Shown: piece after piece, positions 12,407-30,262 of the stretch
How the letters are laid out: every line of letters starts with the position of its first letter
How positions within the stretch are numbered: position 1 is the first letter of the stretch
Assembly: GCF_000746845.1 (NCBI RefSeq)
Contig: NZ_KN050846.1
Span: forward strand, 2,310,963 to 2,374,962
Reading direction: 5' to 3'
Length of the DNA: 64,000 nucleotides
DNA from: Altibacter lentus
GTDB taxonomy: Bacteria; Bacteroidota; Bacteroidia; Flavobacteriales; Flavobacteriaceae
Translations under genes and position numbers: made by a program
Notes under the pieces: model-generated
Told to the model about the DNA's origin: nothing
Databases searched by the model: none
What the model saw: the letters and a program-made list of their open reading frames with translations, nothing else

Positions 12407-13909
12407 TTAGTTGGCTGAAGCGATCAATTCTTTTGTTTCATTGCGAACAAGCGCATACGCCACACTGTTGAAATTATTATGAGCAACTTCATTAAATAAC
12501 TCCATAGCTTTTGCCTCGTCACCCATCATCTTATACGTTCTGGCCATCATGTATTGAACATAGACATTATCCTCATTCAATGTCGCTAGATGTTCGAGCG
12601 CTTTCTCGTAATTACCTTGTTCGTAATTAACCACGGCATGAACCCGATGATACAATCTGAACCTATTCGGATTATCTACATCCTTCAGGATCTCTTTGAT
12701 GGCATCGGCTTTCAGTAAAGCTTCTTTGTAGTCACCTTGTGTGGCAGACACAATAGCGTCCCAGTAATGCATAGATGCGGTTTGGTACTTGGTTGTAATA
12801 GGACTGTTTACTTCACGGCTAATTTGATCGGACATCGGTTTCATCATAGCCACCAATTCCTTGAGGTGTTCGCCATCACCATAGTGCATCGCGATCATTG
12901 CACAATCTGAAACACATCCCATTTTCACCCCATTTTTATTGCTCTCGGGAATATCCATAGAATCGAACATCTTTGCCCCTTCCTCAAGAAAGGCCAATGC
13001 TTTTTTATGATCCCCCTCATACAGGTACGTATAAGCTTCGAAGTTATAAGAACCGGTGCCAAACTCACTAACAGCCCGGGCATCTCTAAAATTTTGCCGT
13101 GCAAGATCATAGTGCCCCATAAAGGTATTGGCATGCCCCGCTTTTGAATGTGCAACTTCGTTCTTTGGGTCCAGTTTGGCAGCCATTTCATAATTTTCAA
13201 GGGCCATTTCAAGATTGTTTTGCGCACGATACGTATCACCCAATCCAATTCTGGCCTGCGAACTTTGCGGCAATTTATGCACCCACATTTGCATATAACG
13301 CTGTGCTTCCTCAAAATCTTTTGGGGAGATAAACAAATACGAATTGCCAAGAATGGAGACGGCCGGAGTATAACTGGAATCCAGTTCAATGGCCTGCTTC
13401 CATAAATCTCTGGCCTTTGGCTCATTATCCCGGCCCGAATAATAGCCCGCTAAATAATCCAGAGCCCTGGCCGACTTAGGATACTTTGTGACCATGGTAG
13501 TAACTATTTCTAGCTCTTTATCAGAATCATCGGCCATACCGGCTTCCAGCAGGTCCATGTTTAGAAGATCCGCCTCACTTCCTTTATTGCGCATCGCAAG
13601 GAACGCATCCCTGTTCTCTGCCCATTCCTTATTCGAACTACTGGTAAACGCTACATACATATGTCCGCTCACAAAATCCGGGTCCAGCGCTACGGCTTTT
13701 TTAAAATGAGGCCGGGCATTGACGATATCTCCCTCGTCGTATAGTTGTAAGCCTTTCATAAAGGCTTCTAAGGCTTCATCGGTGGTTGCCCCTACCGGAA
13801 TATCATTTTCCGGGAATACAACCTTCGGTTCTTCCGGTTGTTTGCACGATGACATAAGAACGAGTGTGATTACCATCACAAACGCTAAAGGTGTGTTGAA
13901 AAGTTTCAT
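12407..13909 (-). CDS. TPR-repeat lipoprotein
   Basis: A 500-residue protein with a lipoprotein signal (hydrophobic LAFVMVITLVLMSSC, lipid-anchored Cys22) and then tetratricopeptide repeats over most of its length, for example ARPHFKKAVALDPDFVSGHMY, KARDLWKQAIELDSSYTPAV, ALENYEMAAKLDPKNEVAHS and KALEHLATLNEDNVYVQYM. Probably at the periplasmic face of a membrane as a scaffold. No enzymatic domain. It is transcribed alone, convergent with the toxin-antitoxin genes. Confidence 0.9.
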   Translation of the reverse strand: MKLFNTPLAFVMVITLVLMSSCKQPEEPKVVFPENDIPVGATTDEALEAFMKGLQLYDEGDIVNARPHFKKAVALDPDFVSGHMYVAFTSSSNKEWAENRDAFLAMRNKGSEADLLNMDLLEAGMADDSDKELEIVTTMVTKYPKSARALDYLAGYYSGRDNEPKARDLWKQAIELDSSYTPAVSILGNSYLFISPKDFEEAQRYMQMWVHKLPQSSQARIGLGDTYRAQNNLEMALENYEMAAKLDPKNEVAHSKAGHANTFMGHYDLARQNFRDARAVSEFGTGSYNFEAYTYLYEGDHKKALAFLEEGAKMFDSMDIPESNKNGVKMGCVSDCAMIAMHYGDGEHLKELVAMMKPMSDQISREVNSPITTKYQTASMHYWDAIVSATQGDYKEALLKADAIKEILKDVDNPNRFRLYHRVHAVVNYEQGNYEKALEHLATLNEDNVYVQYMMARTYKMMGDEAKAMELFNEVAHNNFNSVAYALVRNETKELIASAN

Positions 13910-16861: not shown

Positions 16862-17968
16862 ATGACAAAAATTAAAAAAGGCATAAAAAACCAGTCCTCT
16901 TTAAAAGTAGTTGACTTCTTCTGTGGAGCAGGAGGGGTAACATGTGGGTTTAAGAATATTGGAATTGAAGTTCTAGGTGGGATAGACATAGACCCACAGT
17001 TTGAAAAAACATACGAGGAAAATAATCAAGCGAAATTTCTGAATAAGGATGTTTCTAATTTGGCTCCAGAGAGTTTGAAGGATTTATTACCTATTTTCAC
17101 CAATCAAGACGACTTGGTGTTTGTAGGTTGTAGCCCTTGTCAATATTACTCTAATCTTAAATCGGATAAGACAAAGTCTAAGAAAGGAAGGCTTCTGTTA
17201 GATGATTTTAAAGAATTTGTTCTCTATTACAAACCCGGTTTTGTTTTTATAGAAAATGTCCCTGGGCTTGAAACTAAGAAGGGCAGTCCCCTTCATAAGT
17301 TCAAGTCAGCATTAAGACGCGAAGGTTATTCCTTCGATCAGAAAATTTTAAATGCTAAGTATTTCGGTGTTCCTCAAAATAGAAGGCGATTTGTACTTAT
17401 CGCAAGCAGATTAACGAAGGTACAGTTGCCAAAACAAGTTAGGAGCAAGGATAATACCGTGAGCGTTTCTGATGCTATTGGAGACTACAAGATTTTCCCA
17501 GCTGTTAAAGCAGGAAATGAAGATAAATCAAAATTTATTCATTCTGTTTCCAAGTTATCTCCATTGAACTTAGAGCGTGTTCAAAGAACACCTAAAAACG
17601 GGGGTAGCCGGAAAGCTTGGGAGAATGATGAGAGACTTCAGCTAGAGTGTTACAAAAATCATGATGGTCATTATGATGTCTATGGTCGCTTGCATTGGAA
17701 CAGACCTGCTCCTACTCTGACAACAAGGTTTATTTACACCAGTACTGGAAGATATTCTCACCCTGAACAGGACAGAGCACTTTCTTTAAGAGAAGGTGCT
17801 ACGCTTCAGTCCTTCCCGTTGAATTACAACTTTTATTCACCAAACAAAGGCGCAATTGCTACAATGATTGGAAATGCTGTTCCTCCTAAATTGGCTGAGG
17901 CAATTGGAAATTCTTTATTACAACATTGGACTGAATGGCAAAATTTAGAGCAAAGGCAAGAGCAGTAG
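16862..17968 (+). CDS. C5-cytosine DNA methyltransferase
   Basis: The 368-aa protein has the ordered motifs of the Dcm family: I DFFCGAGGVTCGF, II GGIDID, IV GCSPCQYYS with the catalytic Cys, VI FIENVPGL, VIII QNRRRFVLIAS, a target-recognition region (about 200-290) and X GNAVPPKLAEAIG. Motif IV has YY where FS is usual. It transfers a methyl group from SAM to C5 of cytosine; the target is unknown. It overlaps the next gene by 34 bp. Start is the ATG; a TTG three bases upstream only adds one residue. In context it may protect the host DNA from the nuclease-like third component. Confidence 0.95.
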   Translation: MTKIKKGIKNQSSLKVVDFFCGAGGVTCGFKNIGIEVLGGIDIDPQFEKTYEENNQAKFLNKDVSNLAPESLKDLLPIFTNQDDLVFVGCSPCQYYSNLKSDKTKSKKGRLLLDDFKEFVLYYKPGFVFIENVPGLETKKGSPLHKFKSALRREGYSFDQKILNAKYFGVPQNRRRFVLIASRLTKVQLPKQVRSKDNTVSVSDAIGDYKIFPAVKAGNEDKSKFIHSVSKLSPLNLERVQRTPKNGGSRKAWENDERLQLECYKNHDGHYDVYGRLHWNRPAPTLTTRFIYTSTGRYSHPEQDRALSLREGATLQSFPLNYNFYSPNKGAIATMIGNAVPPKLAEAIGNSLLQHWTEWQNLEQRQEQ

Positions 17969-20838
17969 AACTTTTGGGGAAAGGCCAAATTGCCGACCTA
18001 CCGACCGCCATTACCGAACTTTGGAAGAATGGATACGACGCCTATGGCGATCATTTAAGTGCAAGTCTCTTTCTTTCTGGTTATAGAGACACACAATCAC
18101 CTTTTTTTGTCTTAAGCGATGATGGAGTAGGTATGTCGAATTCCGACATTCTTGAAAAATGGATTGTTTTAGGAACCGACTCCAAAACAAGAAAAACTAT
18201 TCCTGAAAAGCCTTCGTTAGCTACGCTAAACAAAACCCCACGGATGCCAACCGGCGAGAAAGGGATAGGGAGATTATCAGTGGCGTATTTGGGAAATCAA
18301 ATGCTAATGTTGACCAAGAAAATTAATGAACCGCTACAGGCATTGTTTTTTGATTGGCGCATACTGGAAAACTATCACCTCTACATTGATGACATCGAAA
18401 TACCCATACGGCCTATCAAAGATGCTTCCGAATTTGATTCTGCTTGGAAAGAATTACTAATGGACTACAAAAATAACTTCCCCTTAAAAGATGATGATCC
18501 AAGGCAGGAAAAGTGGGAAGAACAACCTGATCTAAAGACTGAAATACTGAAAGATTTGGGTAACATTAAGGTGCCAACGTACTTTCTATCTGAAGTAATC
18601 GAGCCGCTATGTTCCAATACCGCACATGGTACTAAATTTGTGGTTTTTGATCCCATCGATCAATTGCATTTTCTAAAGAATCATGCAAAGCCCGATGAAG
18701 AAAATGAGGACACTATCGAATTCATTCGCTCCGGGTTATCTGGTATGTCCAATGTGTTCAAGGAAGAAAAGCCTGTTTTTGACACCTCCTTTCTGATTTA
18801 TGATTCCGAAATACCAACGGATTTCATTCACCAACGGGAGTTTTTTGATCACGAGGATTTTAAATATGCCGATCACTTGATTGAAGGTTCTTTTGATGAT
18901 TACGGTGTATTTACCGGTAATCTGAAAATCTACAATGAGGAGGTGAAAAACCATTTGTTTAAACCAAACAAAAAAAAGGCAAAGACCTCTTTTGGACCTT
19001 TCCATATTAAAATTGCATCCATTCCCGGGGCGGGTCAGCCAACACTTTTGAACCCGGAGCTATACAAAAAGATGAATGACAAACTGGATCGTGTTGGCGG
19101 GTTATATCTATATAGAGATGGATTCAGGATTTTACCTTATGGCCGCAAAGATTGGGATTTTTTACAATTTGAGGAACGAAGAACCAGAGGAGCCGGTCAT
19201 TATTTCTTCAGTTATCGAAGAATGTGGGGGTACATTGAACTATCTCGGGAGGAAAATAGCCGATTGATTGACAAGGCAGGACGGGAAGGGCTTATCAATA
19301 ATAAGGCCTACAGAGAATTTAAAGCTACTTTGGTATTCTTCTTCATTGACCTTGCTAGAAAGTACTACGGTAAAAGAGCTGAGTTTGATATAAAAACAGA
19401 GCAACAAGAGAAAATTGAGCAACAAAAGCAGGAAGAAGAGAGGGAGAAAGAAGAACGTAAGCAGTTTGTCGCAAACCTTAAAGCGTATCCTAATAAACTT
19501 GAAGAGTTACAAAATGAACTCAATCGGTTAACAGAGGAGCTTGAGAAAAAAACTGGTGAATTATTCGAAGGATATGAGAAGATAGAAAATATTTTGGCTC
19601 GGATTGATGAAATCAAAATCAAAATAAACGAGCTTCAGCTTGAACCACCCAAGAAATTTATTCCTAATGATTCTCAGCGCAAACAACTTTACGATTACCG
19701 AAAGCAACGAGAGTCTATAGAGCGCAAAACAGTTAGCCATGCGAATGCCGTTATTGTGAAAGCGCAAGGTAAGCTTAAAGAAAAAGAGTTGTTAGCCGAA
19801 TTCCGACGCAAACTTGCAGCCTATGAAGAAGCATTGATATCCATCATTCAGGAATACGAAGAACAACTTCAGATCTCTTTCAATCGTCTGCAAGCCGAAT
19901 TTCATCAAGAAAAATCCGATGAACTGGAGGCTTTTAGAAAAGAATATGGAGTGATTCAACCTGCCACATCAAATAGAGAAATAATATATTCCAATCTAAA
20001 GGCAATAGAGGAAATCCATCAAAGCAGATCACAGCGCATAAAAGATCGAATACAGCCCTTTGTAGAACACCTTTCGCGCTTGTCCATAGGACTGGATGAA
20101 GATGCATTGGTAGGTTATTATAAGTTGGAATTTCTCAAACTGCGAGAGAAATGGCAGGAAACACAGGAATTGGCTCAGTTGGGGATTGCCGTAGAAATCA
20201 TTGACCATCAGTTTAACGCCCTTTATTCGAAATTAGCGAAGATCATAGACGCCATGAAGGGATTCGTTATTGATGGAGAAGATAGTGCAACTACATACGC
20301 ACTTCTTCGAACCACATTCGAACATCTGGAAAATAACTACAAGCTACTCACTCCACTCTACCGCACCACTAACCGAATACGAAAAGATATTTCCGGGCAG
20401 GATATATTTGATTATGTAGAAAAATTCTTTGGGAAAGAATTCCGTGAAAAAGAAATTCATGTGGTCGGTACTCCTGTGTTTTTAAAGGCGTCATTCTTTA
20501 CATATGAGTCAATTCTAAAACCTGTTTTTATTAATGTAATCAACAATGCAGTATATTGGCTCAATTCGGTTGAAGATCGTAAACTCCTTTTCGACTTCAT
20601 CGATAATAAAATTGTAATTGCCAATTCTGGAGAACCTATTGACGAGGTTTATATAAAAGAAGGAGATTTATTCAAGGCATTCTTCTCAAGGCGACCCAAA
20701 GGTCGAGGGATAGGTTTGTACTTGGCTAAAACGACTCTAAACAGTGTTGGCTATGAAATAACCGCGACACAGGATCCGAAATACAATCAATTGGACGGAG
20801 CCTGTTTCCTTATTTACGAAGAAAATCATGAATCCTAA
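17935..20838 (+). CDS. Double-GHKL protein: MORC/Hsp90-like ATPase domain plus histidine-kinase-like core
   Basis: A 967-residue soluble protein. The N-terminal GHKL ATPase has the Bergerat motifs E28-L-W-K-N32-x-x-D35-A (N box), DDGVGM (62-67) and GEKGIGRLS (107-115), as in MORC/MutL/Hsp90. A long charged coiled coil spans roughly 480-700. The C-terminus looks like a sensor kinase: an H-box-like helix with IIDH758QF, then a second GHKL fold with INNAVYW (869-875), NSGEP (897-901) and GRGIGLYLAK (923-932). So one chain may sense (MORC-like clamp) and signal (DHp-HATPase). It overlaps both neighbours, so the operon is translationally coupled. Autophosphorylation is inference. Confidence 0.85.
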   Translation: MAKFRAKARAVELLGKGQIADLPTAITELWKNGYDAYGDHLSASLFLSGYRDTQSPFFVLSDDGVGMSNSDILEKWIVLGTDSKTRKTIPEKPSLATLNKTPRMPTGEKGIGRLSVAYLGNQMLMLTKKINEPLQALFFDWRILENYHLYIDDIEIPIRPIKDASEFDSAWKELLMDYKNNFPLKDDDPRQEKWEEQPDLKTEILKDLGNIKVPTYFLSEVIEPLCSNTAHGTKFVVFDPIDQLHFLKNHAKPDEENEDTIEFIRSGLSGMSNVFKEEKPVFDTSFLIYDSEIPTDFIHQREFFDHEDFKYADHLIEGSFDDYGVFTGNLKIYNEEVKNHLFKPNKKKAKTSFGPFHIKIASIPGAGQPTLLNPELYKKMNDKLDRVGGLYLYRDGFRILPYGRKDWDFLQFEERRTRGAGHYFFSYRRMWGYIELSREENSRLIDKAGREGLINNKAYREFKATLVFFFIDLARKYYGKRAEFDIKTEQQEKIEQQKQEEEREKEERKQFVANLKAYPNKLEELQNELNRLTEELEKKTGELFEGYEKIENILARIDEIKIKINELQLEPPKKFIPNDSQRKQLYDYRKQRESIERKTVSHANAVIVKAQGKLKEKELLAEFRRKLAAYEEALISIIQEYEEQLQISFNRLQAEFHQEKSDELEAFRKEYGVIQPATSNREIIYSNLKAIEEIHQSRSQRIKDRIQPFVEHLSRLSIGLDEDALVGYYKLEFLKLREKWQETQELAQLGIAVEIIDHQFNALYSKLAKIIDAMKGFVIDGEDSATTYALLRTTFEHLENNYKLLTPLYRTTNRIRKDISGQDIFDYVEKFFGKEFREKEIHVVGTPVFLKASFFTYESILKPVFINVINNAVYWLNSVEDRKLLFDFIDNKIVIANSGEPIDEVYIKEGDLFKAFFSRRPKGRGIGLYLAKTTLNSVGYEITATQDPKYNQLDGACFLIYEENHES

Positions 20839-22480
20839 TTTTGACACAATTGCTTCGACTATTCTACAGAATTCGATAAAGTCGGCCATTTTTATTGATG
20901 ATCGAGTGCTCCTGCCATTTGAAGCTAAAACCGATCCCGATATTTTGGACTATAGCAACCTCATAGCCCCATTCGAAGAAAGGGGATGCACGTTGTCCTT
21001 TTACCGGTTTGGCAATGAATGGAGAACGAAAGCAAATTTTCTGTTTAACAATAGAGACCTCCTCATTTTGGACTGGCAACTGCGAAAAAATCAAGATACC
21101 TATTCGGATACCTTCGCCATACTTCAGGAAGCTGTACAAACCAACAGCCTGCATTTCTGCTGTATTTATACGGATACCAACCCAAATGCTTTTATTGACA
21201 AGATTATTTTTCCCGTACTGTACTACTTCGGGTACTGCATAAAATTAACCGGTGCCGAGCTTAGCGTCATAAGGAAGCAATTCATCGGTTTTTGTGATGG
21301 GGAAGGCTTGGATTCAGAAGAAGTAATTGCAGTCCTGAACCCATTGTTCAGGGAATATATTCTTTACTCAACCGACTCTACAAAAAAGCGTGAACTAACT
21401 AAACAGATACTGGATTATCTGAAAGAGTCATTTTCAGATTTCCAACAAATCAGAAATGGGGTTAGGGAAATTACAGGAGACTTAGGTCGTTCTTTCGCTG
21501 CCCTGGCTTATGCTTTTGAAGAACAATCCATTCCAATTTGCGAGATTACACACAGAATTCGCATTAGAAAGACCGAATCCGACAACTGGCGTTTGTATGT
21601 GAATAATACGATTATAGCTATTGCTAATAAAGACTCAATTCAAGAACAGCTTTTTTATGAAGAGTTTAAAAACTCCATTGTGGATGAGCACAATATCTTT
21701 CTAACCCTCCTAGGCTTGGAAATGCGAAATGCCTTTCGCAAAGGCTCCGGCTTCATTGGAAAGGAATTGGACGAAATAGACGAAACAGCATTCTTCTATC
21801 ACCACCAAAACATCCAACCCAAAGATGCTTTCTACGAATTTTTAAGGGAATTATGGGTAGATCAAGCTACACACTTTCTTAGTACCGATGAGCCTACATT
21901 GTACTCAACTTTGGAAGAATATAAGGCTAACAATAATATCGACAGTAAGGTAAATGATTTTGAACAGCAAATCCAATCCGAACTTATATTTCAAGAGGCT
22001 CTTGTTAAGCTCAATAATTTCTACAATCAATTACGATTTAACCCGCAGGGCGAAGAACTATTGAGTTTCGGTGATGTGTTGAAACTCAAAAAAGGGAATA
22101 ACACCATTGAATATGTAATGTGCATCACTCCGTTGTGTGATTGTGCCGATCCAGTTAAGATAAAAAGACAATACTTTTTTGTAAGATATGAAACAGTAAT
22201 TGAAAGTTATTTAAATTCCTTGAAAAAGGCTGAAGGAAAGTATATTTCCTATTTACGTTTGGAAGATGGAATATTATGTATAGATTGGGGCGAATGTAAA
22301 CCGTTTTCAATGTACGTTAGAACTCCTAAGCTTGGTAGTCTTTCAAAAGTGTGTTATCAAAACGAATGGTTCGAATTGGAACATTTGGGTCGTATTAAGG
22401 AAAATTTTGCTCAACGTATTGCCAATAAGGCATTAAGCTACCCTGCCAGGGTTGGTGTTTCATTGGCTCAAATTATCTAG
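20828..22480 (+). CDS. Receiver-domain protein partnered with the GHKL kinase-like protein
   Basis: A 550-aa protein. Residues 19-150 resemble a receiver domain: the acidic pair D24-D25 in AIFIDDR, and the putative phospho-acceptor Asp82 in LLILDWQL at the end of the next hydrophobic strand, with a later CCIYTDT strand taking the place of the conserved Thr/Ser strand. The remaining ~400 residues are unrecognised, with a CITPLCDCADP cysteine cluster near 435-445 and KRQYFFVRY. There is no DNA-binding domain, so it is not an ordinary response regulator. It starts 11 bp inside the upstream gene, which fits direct partnership. Confidence 0.75.
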   Translation: MNPNFDTIASTILQNSIKSAIFIDDRVLLPFEAKTDPDILDYSNLIAPFEERGCTLSFYRFGNEWRTKANFLFNNRDLLILDWQLRKNQDTYSDTFAILQEAVQTNSLHFCCIYTDTNPNAFIDKIIFPVLYYFGYCIKLTGAELSVIRKQFIGFCDGEGLDSEEVIAVLNPLFREYILYSTDSTKKRELTKQILDYLKESFSDFQQIRNGVREITGDLGRSFAALAYAFEEQSIPICEITHRIRIRKTESDNWRLYVNNTIIAIANKDSIQEQLFYEEFKNSIVDEHNIFLTLLGLEMRNAFRKGSGFIGKELDEIDETAFFYHHQNIQPKDAFYEFLRELWVDQATHFLSTDEPTLYSTLEEYKANNNIDSKVNDFEQQIQSELIFQEALVKLNNFYNQLRFNPQGEELLSFGDVLKLKKGNNTIEYVMCITPLCDCADPVKIKRQYFFVRYETVIESYLNSLKKAEGKYISYLRLEDGILCIDWGECKPFSMYVRTPKLGSLSKVCYQNEWFELEHLGRIKENFAQRIANKALSYPARVGVSLAQII

Positions 22481-22491
22481 TAACCAAAATT

Positions 22492-24294
22492 GTGAGCGAA
22501 TTATACACACTGATAGAGACAATAAAACACATCAAGTCAGGAAATCAATTTCAACGATACATTGATTTCATCCAATTCCCCTTTTACCGTAACATAGAAA
22601 TCGATACACGGATAACTTTTGATTTCCCGTTGACCGTGTTTATCGGTCAAAACGGTTGTGGCAAGAGTTCTTGTTTACATGCCCTCTATGGAGCACCTGA
22701 CAGATACACTCCATATAAATTTTGGTTCGATACCAAAGTCGATCCCGTAAATTATTATGATGAACAGCGTAAGCGACATTCCTTTTGGTACTCATTTCAG
22801 GAAGGCAAACAAACCAAAGAGGTAATTAAAGCGAGAATTAAGAGGCAAAACGATCCGAATTATTGGGAAACCAGCAGACCCTTGGCATGGGCAGGAATGG
22901 GGACGAGAAGTAATCGAAATGAGAGAGATAGTCCCATTGTCAAAAATGTAGTTTACCTTGATTTTCGTTCAGAGTTAAGCGCCTTTGATAAATATTTCTA
23001 TTTTGGTAATCTAAAATTTAGCCGAGCGAGAAATAAACAAGAATACCTAAGAGGGAGATCATCCTCTCTGAACAAAATATTTACAGGTGAGAAGCCCATA
23101 ATTAACTCCAAAACAAGAGCATTAAATGATCCCTTAGAGACACTATCAGCTAATGAGCTCAAATGGATTTCCTTTGTTTTAGGAAGACAATATGTAAGCG
23201 GACTTTCGGTCTTACATGAGCTGTTCAGAAACGAAGGTTATTCCGTGCTGTTTCAAACTAATTTTGCCAAATACTCGGAGGCTGTTGCGGGAAGCGGTGA
23301 AATTGCCGTGGTAAGGTTGGTTAGGGAAGTATTAGCTGCAGAAAGCTATTCATTAATATTATTGGACGAACCGGAAGTATCATTACACCCCGGAGCGCAG
23401 ACCAGACTTAAATTATTCCTACTCAACCAAATCAAGAGCAAAAAACACCAAGTGGTGTTAACCAGTCATTCACCATCCATTGTAAAAGGTCTTCCTAAGG
23501 AGGCGATAAAGGTGTTCTATCAGAACCCCGGAAATGGAAGGTTCTTGGTAAAAGAAAACCTTACCCCTGAAGAAGCGTTTTTTTACATCGAATTTCCGAT
23601 TGAAAACCGAAAGAACATTGTTGTGGAAGATGTACTGGCACAGGAAATTGTTTCCGGGGTATTGAGTAAAATGGGTGAGGAAACGGAAAATCTATTTAAT
23701 GTAAAGTTCAATCCCGGTGGAGAATCCGTGATCAAAAAAGATTTTATCACTGTCTTTTGTCGAGAACAAAATTCGCAGGACTTCGTGTTCTTTGACGGAG
23801 ATCAACAGCCAGAGAATTCACATCTCGACTGGAAAACTATTCCAATGGCTGACTTAACTGTTGAAAATCTCAAATCAAAGATTCGAGAACAAACCGGTGA
23901 AGAGATTAAGTTTTCTGTTGATGGCAGCCAAGGAGCAGGAAATCAACCCCAACAACTGGAATTACAGAAATTATTTTTGGACTATTATTTGTCCAACGTC
24001 TTCTATCTTCCAAAGCAAATTCCAGAGGATATTATTTGGAACGATGTATTCGCAGAAGCCCTGATCAAAGGAGTTATCCAGGATGACACAATAATAGAAC
24101 AGAAGCTGGTAGAACTCATGACCATTCAAGTAACAAAGCAAAAATTCGCTTTCGTTTCCGACCTGATTCAGGGAGGAAGCAATGCAGAGACTATTTTAAG
24201 TGTTCAAAGGCAGTTTTTACAACGATGGTTAAATGCTGAGAATAATGATTTTGTGACTATCAGAGATTATATTTTAGCAATTGTAAATTCTTAG
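22492..24294 (+). CDS. OLD-like AAA ATPase with TOPRIM-type nuclease segment
   Basis: A 600-residue protein with a GTG start 11 bases after the receiver gene. It has an ABC-type split ATPase: Walker A GQNGCGKSS (52-60), signature GSGE (267-270), Walker B ILLDEPE (D292-E293), and H-loop TSHSPS (H326). After that the pattern VVE379D and FFDGD (435-437) matches the Glu and DxD acids that bind metal in the TOPRIM fold of OLD-family nucleases. This arrangement, ATPase then TOPRIM, is the effector type of several anti-phage systems. Nuclease activity is inferred from the three acids only. Confidence 0.82.
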   Translation: MSELYTLIETIKHIKSGNQFQRYIDFIQFPFYRNIEIDTRITFDFPLTVFIGQNGCGKSSCLHALYGAPDRYTPYKFWFDTKVDPVNYYDEQRKRHSFWYSFQEGKQTKEVIKARIKRQNDPNYWETSRPLAWAGMGTRSNRNERDSPIVKNVVYLDFRSELSAFDKYFYFGNLKFSRARNKQEYLRGRSSSLNKIFTGEKPIINSKTRALNDPLETLSANELKWISFVLGRQYVSGLSVLHELFRNEGYSVLFQTNFAKYSEAVAGSGEIAVVRLVREVLAAESYSLILLDEPEVSLHPGAQTRLKLFLLNQIKSKKHQVVLTSHSPSIVKGLPKEAIKVFYQNPGNGRFLVKENLTPEEAFFYIEFPIENRKNIVVEDVLAQEIVSGVLSKMGEETENLFNVKFNPGGESVIKKDFITVFCREQNSQDFVFFDGDQQPENSHLDWKTIPMADLTVENLKSKIREQTGEEIKFSVDGSQGAGNQPQQLELQKLFLDYYLSNVFYLPKQIPEDIIWNDVFAEALIKGVIQDDTIIEQKLVELMTIQVTKQKFAFVSDLIQGGSNAETILSVQRQFLQRWLNAENNDFVTIRDYILAIVNS

Positions 24295-25203: not shown

Positions 25204-25383
25204 AATTTCTAGGATTTAAAAGTTAAACATAAATGCCGGTGTGCGAATGCCATGTCAAAAGGAGTCTGCAGCACCCTCCCGAACAGGGCATTTTTTCGAA
25301 CACCAACAGGTCAAACATAGAACGGCATTTTCAAACATCCAAACACCCCTGTCCGATTTGGCCGCTTTTGGACACACTTTACC

Positions 25384-25450
25384 GGAATTGTCCACTATTG
25401 TCCGTTTTTGTCCGTTTTTGGTCACTTTGTCCGTTTTTGACCGCTTTTTC
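25384..25450. repeat. TGTCCGTTTTTG direct-repeat cluster
   Basis: TCCGTTTTTG occurs three times within 45 bases, with decayed copies (GTCACTTTGTCC, GACCGCTTTTTCC) around them. It lies upstream of the divergent unknown gene at 24400-25203 and could be an expression or protein-binding repeat. Confidence 0.55.
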
Positions 25451-25499
25451 CAAAATACCTATCCCCAGGCTATCCCCACCTTACCCCCGGGGAGTGAGT

Positions 25500-25578
25500 A
25501 GTGATTGGTGAATGGTGATTGGTGATTGGTGAATGGTTAGTGGTGAGTGATGAATGGTGAGTGGTGAAGAGTGAATGG
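25500..25578. repeat. GTGATTGGTGAATG low-complexity tandem repeat
   Basis: About eleven variants of G(T/A)GA(A/T)TGGT in direct order, degenerate in length. It has no coding sense and is probably a slipped-strand expansion. Confidence 0.55.
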
Positions 25579-25942
25579 AATGGTTTTTTCTGTACTTCGG
25601 ATTAAACAGCTAGCTTTAATTTTTATTGCTAAGTAAGAATATTTATCTAGTTTGAATATTACGATACGAAGGACAACCCTTTTACGCCAGAATATGCACA
25701 CAAAACTTCGAGATCCAGGAGGCCACCGCCGGTGGCTGACGCGGAGTTTTGGGGGCGGTTCCCGGCATCAAAGGCCGGGAAATTCCTCGTAAAAGGCCTC
25801 CTTTTTTTCGTTCTTTTTTTGGAGGAGCAAAAAAAGAAAATAAAAAATAAAAAAAAACAATACTTCTCGATACAATGCACCTCCGGCGCATCACTCGAAG
25901 TGACATCTAAATGATTAATTGAAGAACATCCTTTTTATCAGC

Positions 25943-26176
25943 CTTGCCTCCGACGAGGTGCCAAAGGCACTGAGAGGAAGGCATTTTAAAAAAGCTCGGA
26001 GATTCAGTGAGCATAGCGAACGCCGAGTTTTTGCATTGGTTTGGAATGCGTGAGCATTTCAAAATGCCTATGAAATCGAAGATTCACGAGCACCGAAATA
26101 TCAAATCAAAAAGTGCGAGTAAAAGGAAAAAAGGTACTTTTCGACTGCCTCCGACGAGCATAGCGAGAGGAAGGCA
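25943..26176. repeat. Short hairpin repeats of the CCTCCGACGAG...GAGAGGAAGGC type
   Basis: Two copies of TGCCTCCGACGAG-x-GAGAGGAAGGCA (25944-25984, 26140-26176) are separated by hairpins such as CTCGGAG...CGCCGAG. The reverse-complementary ends suggest small dispersed palindromic elements. Confidence 0.45.
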
Positions 26177-26671
26177 CTATTTCTTTTATACCAGCAAATG
26201 CGAAGCATTCATGAATTCCTTTAAAAAGCAATATAAACGCATGAATAAAAGAAAGTTGAATAATAGAAGAAAACTGGTTAAAAACAAAAACCTACTACTT
26301 CAGCTTTAATTCAGCTTTACTTCGGCTTTAATTCGGGTATACTTCGGCTATACCTTGGCTGTAAGCAAGGTGAACATCGGTCATAAGGCGGCTGCAATAG
26401 AAGGCAGTGTACGATCGAAAGCCGCGTCAGAAAAGGGCTTAACACGATGTGACATGTAGGTGATACACTAAAAAACCCCTCATACCTAACATGGCCTTCA
26501 GAGACCTTAAAACTGTACGAAAATTCTAGAATGTGTTAAAATTTATACGAAAGGGGTTCAGACAAACGTTTTTTGTTCTATGCGTGCATAGTATATGCGA
26601 CAAGCCCCATGAAGTTTCACCCGATGCAGATCCACCGCCCCAATGGATGGGCATCCTAAAAAAAGAAAGAC

Positions 26672-26899
26672 ATGAGACAACAACGCATTTGTATTTACCA
26701 CACCGACGTCTCCTTGCTTACCGGCAAGGGAGAGCGCTCCGCCCGAAGGATCATTCAATCCATCAAGCAACACTCCGGTAAAAATGAACATCAGGCCGTG
26801 ACGGTCTGTGAACTCTCCCAATACCTGGGCCTCGATCCCTTAGTGGTCTATAAGACCATCAACAACCTGCCACTGCTGGAGGAATGGGCGGGAGAGTAG
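26672..26899 (+). CDS. Small conserved-looking protein (75 aa)
   Basis: Starts MRQQRICIYHTDVSLLTGKGERSARRIIQSIK and ends with a likely helix-turn-helix-like part, VCELSQYLGLDPLVVYKTINN. The second half fits a small DNA-binding winged or HTH fold; the first a strand plus helix. I recognise it only as a recurrent small flavobacterial type, function unknown. GC-rich codons resemble the downstream core rather than the repeats. A longer frame in another phase overlaps but lacks any motif. Confidence 0.6.
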   Translation: MRQQRICIYHTDVSLLTGKGERSARRIIQSIKQHSGKNEHQAVTVCELSQYLGLDPLVVYKTINNLPLLEEWAGE

Positions 26900-27022
26900 C
26901 TTTCTAACGTTTTTTTGCTGCGCTTTGTGTAGCCTCACCTTCTATAACGAAAAAAATTTTAAAAAAGAGGGTAGGGTAAACGCAAGTTGAACTGTTGTAC
27001 GTATATAGGGATAAGCTCCGTA

Positions 27023-27054
27023 TTTGAAAGTGATCTTATTTTTATGTAACTTTA
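27023..27054 (+). promoter_or_regulatory. Bacteroidetes promoter TTTG-N20-TAACTTTA
   Basis: A -33 TTTG (27023-27026) and a near-consensus -7 TAACTTTA (27047-27054) with 20-base spacing, 15 bases before the first DGYY-repeat gene. Good spacing for a flavobacterial sigma-A-type promoter. It probably serves both repeat genes. Confidence 0.6.
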
Positions 27055-27069
27055 TAAAAAGGCCACAAC

Positions 27070-27357
27070 ATGAAAAGACGTAATTTTATTAAGAAATCGG
27101 GACAGGCGCTCCTAGCCGCCACCACCATTTCAATTACAGGAAGCCTTATCGCTTCTTGTAGTTCAGACGACGATACATTCTTTGACGACGGCTATTACGG
27201 AGATGGCTACTACGACGACGGGTATTATGACGATGGGTATTATGATGATGGCTACTACGATGACGGCTACTATGATGACGGTTATTACGATGACGGCTAC
27301 TACGACGACGGTTATTACGATGACGGCTATTATGATGATGGTTACTACGACGATTAA
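27070..27357 (+). CDS. Tat-type lipoprotein made of DGYY(D/G) pentapeptide repeats, short form
   Basis: The 95-aa product has a twin-arginine-like start (KRRNFIKKSG), a hydrophobic segment and lipobox SLIASC (Cys30), a short acidic linker, then eleven DGYY(D/G) repeats to the very last residue (40-94). There is no C-terminal domain, unlike the next gene, with which it shares the first 30 residues almost exactly. So it may be the product of a duplication that lost the 3' part or a natural repeat-only form. Repeat codons differ silently, which suggests selection on the peptide. Likely exported and lipid-anchored. Function unknown. Confidence 0.75.
   Translation: MKRRNFIKKSGQALLAATTISITGSLIASCSSDDDTFFDDGYYGDGYYDDGYYDDGYYDDGYYDDGYYDDGYYDDGYYDDGYYDDGYYDDGYYDD
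27187..27354 (+). repeat. 15-bp coding minisatellite, 11 units (DGYY repeat)
   Basis: Fifteen-base units read GAY-GGN-TAY-TAY-GAY, or GGA for the last codon of the first unit. Third positions vary freely while the peptide stays constant. Confidence 0.9.
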
Positions 27358-27389
27358 CCCGTTCAAAAAGGGACCCAACAACACACAAT

Positions 27390-28100
27390 ATGAAACGCAG
27401 AAAATTTATTAAGAAATCGGGGCAGGCCTTACTGGCAGTTTCTACAGTGTCAATAACAGGCCATCTCATTACCTCTTGTACGCCCGAAAGTTCCGAAGAC
27501 TTCTTCGGGGACGGCTACTATGGCGATGGCTATTATGGGGATGGGTATTATGATGATGGCTATTACGACGATGGTTACTACGATGACGGCTATTACGATG
27601 ACGGGTATTACGACGATGGGTATTACGATGACGGATACTACGACGATGGCTATTATGACGATGGCTATTATGACGACGGTTATTACGACGATGGATACTA
27701 CGATGACGGGTATTACGACGACGGCTATTATGATGATGGCTACTATGACGACGGCTATTACGGAGACGCTCAGGAATTGATCGATATTCTGTTGGACGGT
27801 ACCTGGTTTGTACAGATGTATATAGACAGCGGAAGCGACCAAACGGCCACCTATGCAGGCTACAACGTCGATTTCATGACCGCCAATAATGTGGTGGCTA
27901 CCAACGGGTCGAACACCAATAACGGTGTCTGGCTGGTAAGCAGCAACGGACAACAGTTGAACCTGGCCTTTAGCGGCTCACCGTTCGATGAGTTCAATGA
28001 CGAGTGGGATGTCTTTAGTGTAGAGCCCACCCGCGTGGAGGTCCGTGACGTAAGTGGCGGCGGCGGCGGAACCGATATCCTCGTCTTCGAAAAACTATAA
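27390..28100 (+). CDS. Tat-type lipoprotein with 17 DGYY repeats and a C-terminal globular domain
   Basis: The 236-residue protein has the same export start as its neighbour (KRRKFIKKSG, lipobox Cys30), 17 DGYY(D/G) repeats (41-125) and a 110-residue C-terminal domain (127-236). That domain starts AQELIDILLDGTWFVQMYIDSG and has strands NGVWLVSSNGQQLNLAF and VEPTRVEVRDVSGGGGGTDILVFEKL, in the style of small lipocalin-like Bacteroidetes domains. The Asp/Tyr repeats could bind Ca2+ or metals, or form a stalk. The gene follows 32 bases after the short copy. Unknown function; the architecture itself is well supported. Confidence 0.85.
   Translation: MKRRKFIKKSGQALLAVSTVSITGHLITSCTPESSEDFFGDGYYGDGYYGDGYYDDGYYDDGYYDDGYYDDGYYDDGYYDDGYYDDGYYDDGYYDDGYYDDGYYDDGYYDDGYYDDGYYDDGYYGDAQELIDILLDGTWFVQMYIDSGSDQTATYAGYNVDFMTANNVVATNGSNTNNGVWLVSSNGQQLNLAFSGSPFDEFNDEWDVFSVEPTRVEVRDVSGGGGGTDILVFEKL
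27510..27764 (+). repeat. 15-bp coding minisatellite, 17 units (DGYY repeat)
   Basis: Seventeen units of the same degenerate 15-mer as in the upstream gene. The first two and last units carry Gly instead of the second Asp. Confidence 0.9.
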
Positions 28101-28189: not shown

Positions 28190-30262
28190 ATGAGCACAGT
28201 TCTATTCTTACATGACACCGGCCTGGCCACCCCAAGAGGCGCCGAACTTACCATAAAACAATTGATCCGCCTGGGTGAGGAGCGGGGGCATACGGTCTTG
28301 CTGGACTACCTTAAGGATCTGGAAGATACCAAATCTCATATCCAAAAAGCCGATCTTGTTATTCTGAACAGTACCTCCCGCTGTACCTTCGAACTGGAAC
28401 TGGTACAACACCTGGTTGAAAACGAAACGCCCTACGTGAAGGTAGAATACGATTACAATTTCTGCATTCGGCGTAATATCCTCTGCACCGTCGACCGAAA
28501 CGTTCGCAGTTGCTGCCACCCCGATAAGTTCCACTGGTTCCGAAAGCTTTTCGCCAACGCTCGTCTCAATGTCTTTCAATCCCCCAAACACTTCCAGTCA
28601 CATTACGAATTCTATGGCGAAGCGGTAACCAGTAAATTGATCATGCCGCCTACGGTAGAAGTGTCGCTTTTAAACCCTTCGGAAGAAAAGCAGGACCATA
28701 CCATTCCTTTTTTCGGAGACCTTAATTATTTAAAGGGCGGACACGAATTTGTCACCTACGCCGAAGAACACCCCGAGACCCGTTTTACTGTCTACGGAAG
28801 GAACCGCCTGCGACGGGAGATGCCACAGAATATGAGCTTTCACGATCCTGTTTCCAATGAAGAAGTGCTCGACATCCTCGGAAAGACCAAACGCTTTTTC
28901 TGCAAACCGGTATGGCCCGAACCTTCCGGCAGACTCGCCGCGGAAGCCTTCCTCTCCGGTTGTGAGATGATCGCTAATGACAGGGTAGGGACCTTCTCTT
29001 TCGATTTTTATCCGAACGACAAGGAACAGGCCAAAAAAGAAATGGAACAGGCTCCCGAGGTCTTTTGGAAATCGGTGGAAGGGATATTGACCACTTCTGA
29101 AGCGTCCTCCAAAGCACCTTCTCTGGGGAATGTACTGGTCTATAAGAGTTACGGCGGACTGGGAGATATCTTCTTTGCCATTCCGGCGATCTATAAGATC
29201 AAGGAAGTATCCGGGAGTTTACACTTCGCGGTGGCACCCCGTCTGGTGGACTTCTTTGCCAAACACCTGCCCGGTATCAAGGTGGTGAACGAAAAGGAAG
29301 TACGGGAACAGGAGGATGGGTATGACCACATCTACGAATTTGGGAATTATCCGGCATTTCGCGGGTACCACCTGCCACACGCTTTAAAATATCCCACCCA
29401 TAAAAAGGTGAAGCAACACGCCATTCAGCATTATATCGATACGGCGGCCAAGCTGCACAAGGACATCGATAACCATCTGGAACGCTACCCCTACTTTAAA
29501 AGCAAGAAGGATTCCACGAACCCTTACTTTGTTGTGCATCATGGTGCCGGCTTCTTACTGAAGATCTGGCCTACCGATAAGTTCGCGGCACTCATAGAAC
29601 GTCTCGCAACCATTTATCCCCATCTGGATTGCAAGGTCATCATGGGCCCCGACGATCCCGATCTCGCTCAGTATTTCACCAAAGAGCTGCCGCATGTGTC
29701 CTTTGTGACCGGGGGTATGCTGGACGTGGGCGAGGCCATGGCAGGAGCACTGTTCCATATAGGGAACGACGCCGGGATCACACACGTAGCGGGGGCCTTT
29801 AATGTGCCTTCGGTAGGGATCTATGGTCCCACCGGACCGGGAAGCTGGGGAAGCTTTGCCGAACACAATGAGTTGATCTGGGGAAAGAAAGGGGTCTGTG
29901 CCATTCGATGCAACTACGATGTCATCCTCAATTGCGATCATAAGATCTGCCTCAACTCGGTCACGGTAGACCGGGTACTGGAAGCATTGTACAAAGTATT
30001 ACAACGTGCCTACCCCGAACAGGAAGAGCTGTTGCGGGTCAATCCGCAGGCCACCTTCGACTTCACAGAGAACGACTGCCTTGTGACCCTGGGGGAGAAC
30101 GAACTGCTGCTGGAATATCACAATGCAGACATGAAGCAGCACATCGAGTCCCTTTTCACCCAACCTGCTTCAGTAAACGCAATGGAAGGAGATTTTGCGC
30201 TGGTGGTGGACGTGCTCAAACAACAGCACATTCTTTTTGAAGTACCTACCTTTCAAAGATAG
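28190..30262 (+). CDS. Two-domain glycosyltransferase: GT4-like N-terminus fused to a GT9 heptosyltransferase-type domain
   Basis: The ATG at 28190 (690 aa) gives MSTVLFLHDTGLATPRGAE, a better start than a GTG 27 bases earlier. Residues 1-320 resemble a GT-B nucleotide-sugar transferase (LGKTKRFFCKPVWPEPSGRLAAEA, the E-x7-E type donor site). Residues about 325-620 resemble ADP-heptose:LPS transferases: SYGGLGDIFFAIPAIYKI, MGPDDPDL, and the GNDAGITHVAGAFNVPSVGIYGPTGPGSWG signature. Probably makes part of an LPS or surface glycan. Residues 620-690 are unassigned. Confidence 0.85.
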   Translation: MSTVLFLHDTGLATPRGAELTIKQLIRLGEERGHTVLLDYLKDLEDTKSHIQKADLVILNSTSRCTFELELVQHLVENETPYVKVEYDYNFCIRRNILCTVDRNVRSCCHPDKFHWFRKLFANARLNVFQSPKHFQSHYEFYGEAVTSKLIMPPTVEVSLLNPSEEKQDHTIPFFGDLNYLKGGHEFVTYAEEHPETRFTVYGRNRLRREMPQNMSFHDPVSNEEVLDILGKTKRFFCKPVWPEPSGRLAAEAFLSGCEMIANDRVGTFSFDFYPNDKEQAKKEMEQAPEVFWKSVEGILTTSEASSKAPSLGNVLVYKSYGGLGDIFFAIPAIYKIKEVSGSLHFAVAPRLVDFFAKHLPGIKVVNEKEVREQEDGYDHIYEFGNYPAFRGYHLPHALKYPTHKKVKQHAIQHYIDTAAKLHKDIDNHLERYPYFKSKKDSTNPYFVVHHGAGFLLKIWPTDKFAALIERLATIYPHLDCKVIMGPDDPDLAQYFTKELPHVSFVTGGMLDVGEAMAGALFHIGNDAGITHVAGAFNVPSVGIYGPTGPGSWGSFAEHNELIWGKKGVCAIRCNYDVILNCDHKICLNSVTVDRVLEALYKVLQRAYPEQEELLRVNPQATFDFTENDCLVTLGENELLLEYHNADMKQHIESLFTQPASVNAMEGDFALVVDVLKQQHILFEVPTFQR

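Follow-up and report, generated by a model that had tools for sequence, protein, structure and literature searches.

Why would a flavobacterium carry, in tandem, two lipoproteins built on arrays of a tyrosine-rich DGYY unit, and what might the large glycosyltransferase (GT) encoded directly behind them do? We addressed this question in a window of 64,000 nucleotides of the Altibacter lentus genome (contig NZ_KN050846.1), in which the genes for the lipoproteins, ORF A and ORF B, and for the GT lie on the same strand (Table 1). An earlier, sequence-only reading of this DNA had described two Tat-type lipoproteins with 11 and 17 units of DGYY[D/G], and both ORFs were indeed present where it had placed them. 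As it had also described, ORF A stops within its repeats (the protein ends in DGYYDD) and has no C-terminal domain. The two signal sequences, called almost identical in that reading, proved to be so as proteins, but not as DNA, in which many silent differences were visible by eye; the pair is therefore not the result of a recent DNA duplication.

The DGYY lipoproteins are an undescribed family. Pfam and NCBIfam searches with both proteins gave no match above threshold, in agreement with the earlier remark that they were not recognisable from known families, and literature searches returned no relevant paper on DGYY repeats and none on tyrosine-rich Tat lipoproteins in Flavobacteria.

Table 1. 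Features of the DGYY locus (positions in the window)
Feature	Position	Strand	Description	Basis
ORF A	27070..27357	+	Tat-type lipoprotein, 95 aa, 11 DGYY units, without C-terminal domain	
ORF A signal	27070..27159	+	Twin-arginine lipoprotein signal (MKRRNFIKKSG...IASC), lipobox Cys30, then SSDDD	
ORF A array	27187..27351	+	DGYY[D/G], 11 units	Codon comparison
ORF B	27390..28100	+	Tat-type lipoprotein, 236 aa, 17 DGYY units and a C-terminal domain of ~110 aa	
ORF B array	27510..27764	+	DGYY[D/G], 17 units	Codon comparison
ORF B C-terminal domain	27765..28097	+	Predicted lipocalin/META-like beta-barrel	AF2 (pLDDT 92.6), Foldseek
GT	28190..30262	+	Candidate dedicated glycosyltransferase, 690 aa: GT4-like half ~1-305, GT9 half ~310-605, C-terminal ~85 aa	
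GT four-Cys motif	29897..29950	+	Invariant C570-x3-C574-x7-C582-x4-C587, C-lobe of the GT9 half	

Two further features of the window lie outside this locus. Positions 17935-24294 hold a three-gene set, possibly an anti-phage defence system, that encodes a 967-aa protein resembling by eye a histidine-kinase-type ATPase, a Response_reg_2 protein (PF19192) and an AAA ATPase (best PADLOC match HEC-04, 4.9e-32). Tandem GTGAATG heptamers occupy 25494-25578, within a gene-poor stretch (~25230-27070).

The repeat peptide, rather than the DNA, is conserved

Tandem Repeats Finder (TRF) detected 15-bp arrays at 27183-27353 and 27513-27762 with only ~80% matches, because the third codon positions differ. 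Within each array, the first and second positions of the D, G, Y and Y codons were invariant, and the third positions varied, with GAT and GAC, TAT and TAC, and several GGN codons all in use. Pairwise comparison of units (Nei-Gojobori) gave a saturated pS of ~1.1 against a pN of 0.02-0.03 for ORF A and ORF B, and medians of 1.04 and 0.038, respectively, between units over 46 relatives, pS values above 0.75 being a consequence of site-counting at two-fold codons. The suggestion that the peptide is what is conserved was thus borne out, among units and across relatives. Saturation at synonymous sites combined with a fixed peptide indicates that the DGYY peptide is old and under selection, and that the frame is translated; purifying selection acts on Gly-Tyr-Tyr.

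Conservation within the unit was examined in 48 proteins. Of the 420 slots, 419 retained the first tyrosine and 417 the second, and a single change to phenylalanine was found in ~840 tyrosine positions. The near absence of Tyr-to-Phe, an exchange that takes one base change and is as mild as an aromatic residue usually allows, suggests that the phenol hydroxyl is selected; the hydroxyl of the repeat tyrosines seems to matter. The constancy of glycine is partly due to the way in which units were detected. The aspartate before the glycine was kept in ~95% of units (otherwise N, G or S), and the residue preceding it was the least constrained (D, G, N, V, E, M or C). Threonine was absent from every array and serine occurred at most once per array, leaving tyrosine as the sole regular hydroxyl acceptor within the arrays.

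A family of Flavobacteriaceae lipoproteins

A search of 301 Flavobacteriaceae genomes and a scan of 85k species genomes together yielded 46 further loci of the same layout; the sequence-only reading had proposed such a search for DGYY arrays in Bacteroidetes. The loci were all of them in Flavobacteriaceae or in Bacteroidia MAGs carrying the same operon. The named hosts include Altibacter, Aequorivita, Halomarinibacterium, Planktosalinus, Xanthomarina, Hanstruepera, Formosa, Psychroserpens, Meridianimaribacter and Flavobacterium. The common layout is an M-x-R-R-x-F-[I/L/V] signal, a lipobox cysteine, a short acidic stretch and then 3-18 DGYY units, and the recurrence of Tat-type signal and repeats together in dozens of genera is far from what chance would produce. 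That reading had held that absence from related genomes would speak against it, and had proposed comparing unit number; the relatives do carry arrays, and with differing numbers of units, so this objection does not arise. A sister genome (G001) lacks the DGYY lipoprotein and its GT, as well as the flanking nitroreductase.

The short form, represented by ORF A, was present in 32 of the 46 loci and the long form, represented by ORF B, in 14; among the loci that were read, the tandem pair was seen only in the window. The C-terminal domain of the long form is predicted to be a small lipocalin-like (calycin) beta-barrel. Foldseek searches with the AF2 model gave a DUF4822 protein as best match (4nw4, E = 7.8e-5), a DUF4847 protein (4zgf, 3.5e-4) and lipocalins. 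The modelled fold is that of Lipocalin_4, META and DUF4847-type domains, but the sequence match to these is marginal and the domain has no Pfam family match. It also occurs in a 595-aa lipoprotein (in three copies) and a 160-aa lipoprotein of the source genome. Since two thirds of the loci lack it, the domain is dispensable for the core system. The one- and three-copy lipoproteins adjoin sigma-factor, FecR-like and TonB-receptor-like genes (L008, 4598-6902), and related multi-copy proteins are found in many Flavobacteriaceae genomes.

Several divergent or unrelated proteins were noted during this survey. A divergent DGYY protein (L054, 10001-10291) has V, M and E spacers, begins with CGGYY, ends with GYPC, and has as neighbours a 559-aa GT, likewise divergent, and, on the other strand, a GT2 gene. 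In Xanthomarina spongicola (L100, 10001-10264) the spacer of two units contains a cysteine (YYCDGYY). Five matches of the scan were excluded as unrelated: a long protein with a TDDGYTDDGYY tail and no Tat signal seen, from a Clostridia MAG (L055, 3069-3266); a different lipoprotein of Ruminococcus with a single DGYYDD (L096); and matches in L104, a Phycisphaerae MAG (L092) and Qipengyuania (L083). The Phycisphaerae protein (13449-13862) has acidic-tyrosine repeats, YYYDDAYYYDDTYY, without a Tat motif. The acidic-tyrosine repeats of L055 and L092 are possibly convergent with the DGYY arrays.

Signals for export and surface display

The Tat-type lipoprotein signal described earlier was found throughout the family, with an RRxF[ILV] motif and a lipobox in 46 of 46 relatives, and TatC is encoded in the source genome. 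The mature N-termini mostly start with CSS or CST, and an acidic stretch resembling an export signal, in most cases CSSDDD, is present in nearly all relatives. Surface lipoprotein export signals (LES) have been proposed as SDDFE in Flavobacterium johnsoniae and SDDDD in Bacteroides fragilis (PMC5080379). The polar and then acidic residues that follow the cysteine in such Bacteroidetes lipoproteins are matched by the typical CSSDDD, and CTPESSED, the corresponding sequence of ORF B, fits less well than that of ORF A. From these signals, the DGYY lipoproteins are predicted to be exported by Tat and placed on the cell surface.

Tat tolerates folded or bulky cargo, and export by this route of a lipoprotein glycosylated in the cytoplasm would be reasonable. 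Known systems use Sec or accessory Sec to export cytoplasmically glycosylated proteins, so that Tat is not required as such.

A glycosyltransferase gene accompanies the lipoprotein gene

One GT family was encoded directly downstream, on the same strand, in 46 of 47 loci (the window and 45 of the 46 further loci), at a distance of 3-183 nt (median 80). Only 3 nt separate the lipoprotein stop codon from the TTG of the GT in several Flavobacterium-type loci. The one locus that departs from this pattern (L080) is a second DGYY copy in Hanstruepera ponticola and lies beside a 68-aa GT9 remnant that corresponds to the end of the enzyme; at the other copy of this genome (L069) both genes are complete. 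No other neighbour family was present in more than 18 of the 47 loci, and the wider flanking genes differ, with several sets by genus group.

Co-occurrence was evaluated in a smaller sample of 301 Flavobacteriaceae genomes, in which the lipoprotein was found in 24, the GT in 25, and both in 24 (hypergeometric 1.3e-34, computed without regard to phylogeny); the association partly reflects shared ancestry. The 25th GT, in a genome without a DGYY match (G108), is encoded by a gene that runs off the contig end. In this genome (L126/L131) the GT9 half is joined to another N-terminal piece which by eye resembles the end of a GT25-type protein. When the GT was searched for across the class under a strict cut-off, only its own genome was returned, and in that sample the subfamily did not appear outside the family.

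By a simple start rule, the GT start codon was TTG in 40 of 45 loci (GT genes of L056-L103); a GT with a TTG start is likewise present at L095. Such a start may hold translation of the enzyme below that of its proposed substrate.

The enzyme combines a GT4-like and a GT9 half

The GT9 half matched PF01075 (8.5e-17, 61.7 bits against a cut-off of 22), and the GT4-like half matched PF00534 at 2.4e-4, under the curated cut-off. In an AlphaFold2 model of the enzyme (pLDDT 84.7) the GT4-like domain is alpha/beta, and Foldseek matched the model to WaaC (1.6e-11) and TibC (4rap, 2e-9), with resemblance also to Escherichia coli WaaF and a Veillonella GT9 (3tov). The enzyme is thus of the GT4 plus GT9 fold class. 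A catalytic-type aspartate near the N-terminus of the GT9 domain, D326, which is invariant in the family, aligned with the GD motif of WaaC (SSMGDVLHTLPAL). The four cysteines follow a DxGxxH motif in the C-lobe and were invariant in 34 GT sequences; the motif was missing in two ordinary GT9 sequences from sister genomes, such paralogues occurring separately in the genus. The GT9 half has no strongly hydrophobic segment, and we propose that the enzyme is soluble and cytoplasmic.

The C-terminal ~85 residues (30008-30259) are modelled by AlphaFold2 as strands, two helices and a strand. This domain gave no sequence match in Pfam or the PDB, is kept in all aligned enzymes of the family, also as the remnant at L080, and could be a substrate-binding part. 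It was considered as a PqqD-type recognition element; sequence searches gave no domain of that type.

In Psychroserpens, Arcticiflavibacter and Aureisphaera the enzyme has no GT4 half, and a DUF5672-GT2 protein is encoded after its GT9; at L054 and L080 a GT2 gene stands in for the latter protein. That a second transferase is kept despite its changing identity suggests that the glycan has two or more sugars. TIGR02199 (rfaE_dom_II), the domain for ADP-heptose synthesis, was absent from 25 of 25 host genomes and was found in control genomes; judged by this one route to heptose, the donor is therefore probably not ADP-heptose.

A proposed function and its alternatives

These observations are most economically explained by a dedicated glycosylation operon whose acceptor is tyrosine. 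The near-universal, co-conserved GT neighbour, which lies outside the coordinates of the sequence-only reading and was not linked there to the arrays, points to attachment of sugar to the tyrosines, and the locus would then be a small protein-glycosylation operon, with the DGYY lipoproteins as substrate and the GT4-GT9 protein as their dedicated transferase. The GT9 half probably attaches the first sugar at the phenol oxygen of the repeat tyrosines, and the second transferase (the GT4 half, or the DUF5672-GT2 or GT2 protein elsewhere) probably extends it. The modified lipoprotein would leave through Tat, be lipidated at Cys30 and be flipped to the cell surface. There, the array may form an acidic, sugar-coated brush or stalk, carrying in ORF B a lipocalin-like domain at its end. 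We consider it rather probable that the GT glycosylates the repeat tyrosines in the cytoplasm, that Tat exports the product and that a surface lipoprotein displays it. The fuller picture, in which a Tat-exported surface lipoprotein with Tyr-Tyr pairs hyperglycosylated by the GT4-GT9 enzyme serves Flavobacteriaceae as a protein-based glycan brush, seems to us evenly poised between right and wrong. The repeat as substrate and the linkage to tyrosine, suggested by gene association and hydroxyl conservation, are the weakest links, and the order of the sugars and the biological role are put forward in the same conditional sense.

GT9 enzymes mostly build LPS, and the conserved neighbourhood could therefore reflect a shared surface-glycan pathway. 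The GT may build another surface glycan, an LPS or a polysaccharide, which the DGYY lipoprotein binds or anchors through its aromatic-acidic repeats, themselves left unglycosylated. The GT9 members WaaC and WaaF do make LPS core, and aromatic residues commonly stack on sugars, as those of the repeats could; we nevertheless think this unlikely, since the surroundings of the 47 loci hold no further conserved gene for LPS or polysaccharide, the tyrosines are not swapped for the Phe or Trp that pure stacking would permit, and ordinary GT9 paralogues, two of which were read and lack the four-Cys motif, lie separately in the genus. A lipoprotein glycosylated elsewhere, at the serines beside the lipidated cysteine, at aspartate carboxyls or in the C-terminal domain, is an improbable explanation. 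It would suit the CSS or CST with which most mature N-termini start and the modification of serine by known homologous enzymes (PMC4358343), but it leaves the strict conservation of Gly-Tyr-Tyr unexplained, and the 32 of 46 loci without a C-terminal domain still keep the GT.

The sequence-only reading had suggested that the arrays could bind metal, cross-link through dityrosine or form a stalk. This would give a metal-binding or cross-linked stalk for which sugar is unnecessary. Nothing found in our analysis points to metal binding or to dityrosine, and we hold this for slightly less probable again. Acid and tyrosine do alternate, a requirement for the phenol group here would likewise agree with the single Phe in ~840 positions, and a few variants (L100, L054) have cysteine in the spacer; yet the near-universal neighbouring GT is left unexplained, and among the neighbouring genes none for an oxidase, a peroxidase or a metal-related function is conspicuously conserved. 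The arrays are compatible with a stalk as such. Leader, identical short cores and a modifying enzyme are also the usual layout of a ribosomally made multi-core precursor peptide, whose cores the GT would modify before they are cut out and released, and the extra C-terminal domain of the GT could bind such a substrate. This is very improbable, as no conserved protease or exporter is found nearby, the leader is a lipoprotein signal, and searches with the C-terminal domain revealed nothing of PqqD type. A translated microsatellite expansion without function might account for unit numbers that range from 3 to 18; it is hardly credible, being already refuted by the codon pattern, with synonymous sites saturated and the peptide fixed in many genera beside an operon partner.

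Comparison with known systems

The proposed glycosylation operon resembles the systems of TibC/AAH, the bacterial autotransporter heptosyltransferases (BAHT), with TibA and AIDA-I as substrates, in pairing a dedicated GT9-fold enzyme with a repeat-containing surface protein, here the proposed substrate. Both TibC and the GT described here have a four-Cys motif in the C-lobe. In TibC these form an iron finger at residues 339, 342, 358 and 370 (PMC4358343), and the spacing is x2-x15-x11, compared with x3-x7-x4 here. The N-terminal beta-barrel of TibC is absent, a GT4-like domain standing in its place; the neighbour of BAHT is an autotransporter, whereas here it is a Tat-type lipoprotein of DGYY units; and the BAHT donor is ADP-heptose, whereas the host genomes lack an HldE-type ADP-heptose synthase domain. 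TibC hyperglycosylates repeat adhesins; it and its relatives modify serine (PMC4358343), and the proposed acceptor here is tyrosine.

Serine-rich repeat glycoproteins are glycosylated inside the cell by dedicated Gtf enzymes and then follow a non-standard export route (PMC5578698). They share with the proposed operon a low-complexity repeat and dedicated transferases. They differ in having serine repeats, a Gram-positive host and accessory Sec, in contrast to the tyrosine repeats, Gram-negative host, lipidation and Tat signal seen here. The DGYY operon belongs to neither the TibC/TibA group nor the serine-rich repeat group, since it does not match them in N-terminal barrel, heptose donor or substrate, be this an autotransporter or a serine-repeat protein. 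In the same phylum, Bacteroidetes, a general O-glycosylation system (Tannerella, Bacteroides) acts on Ser/Thr within a short motif and also yields surface glycoproteins, but DGYY arrays have no threonine and hardly any serine.

The locus offers a compact two-gene candidate whose putative acceptor, the repeated peptide DGYYD, is simple and can be synthesised and assayed. If the proposed reading is true, it would link the Tat pathway to the export of glycosylated proteins and would reveal, in a large environmental group of bacteria, a surface glycoprotein of a new type. In bacteria, tyrosine O-glycosylation has come to light in a few S-layers, and we know of no soluble transferase identified for it. 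In the S-layer proteins of Paenibacillus alvei (SpaA) and Thermoanaerobacter, tyrosine O-glycosylation has been described, with at least two tyrosines receiving a long glycan in a transfer thought to be co-secretional (PMC2943079). The sugar-tyrosine linkage proposed for the DGYY lipoproteins would be the same, but with many tandem tyrosines as acceptors and a soluble enzyme as the transferase.
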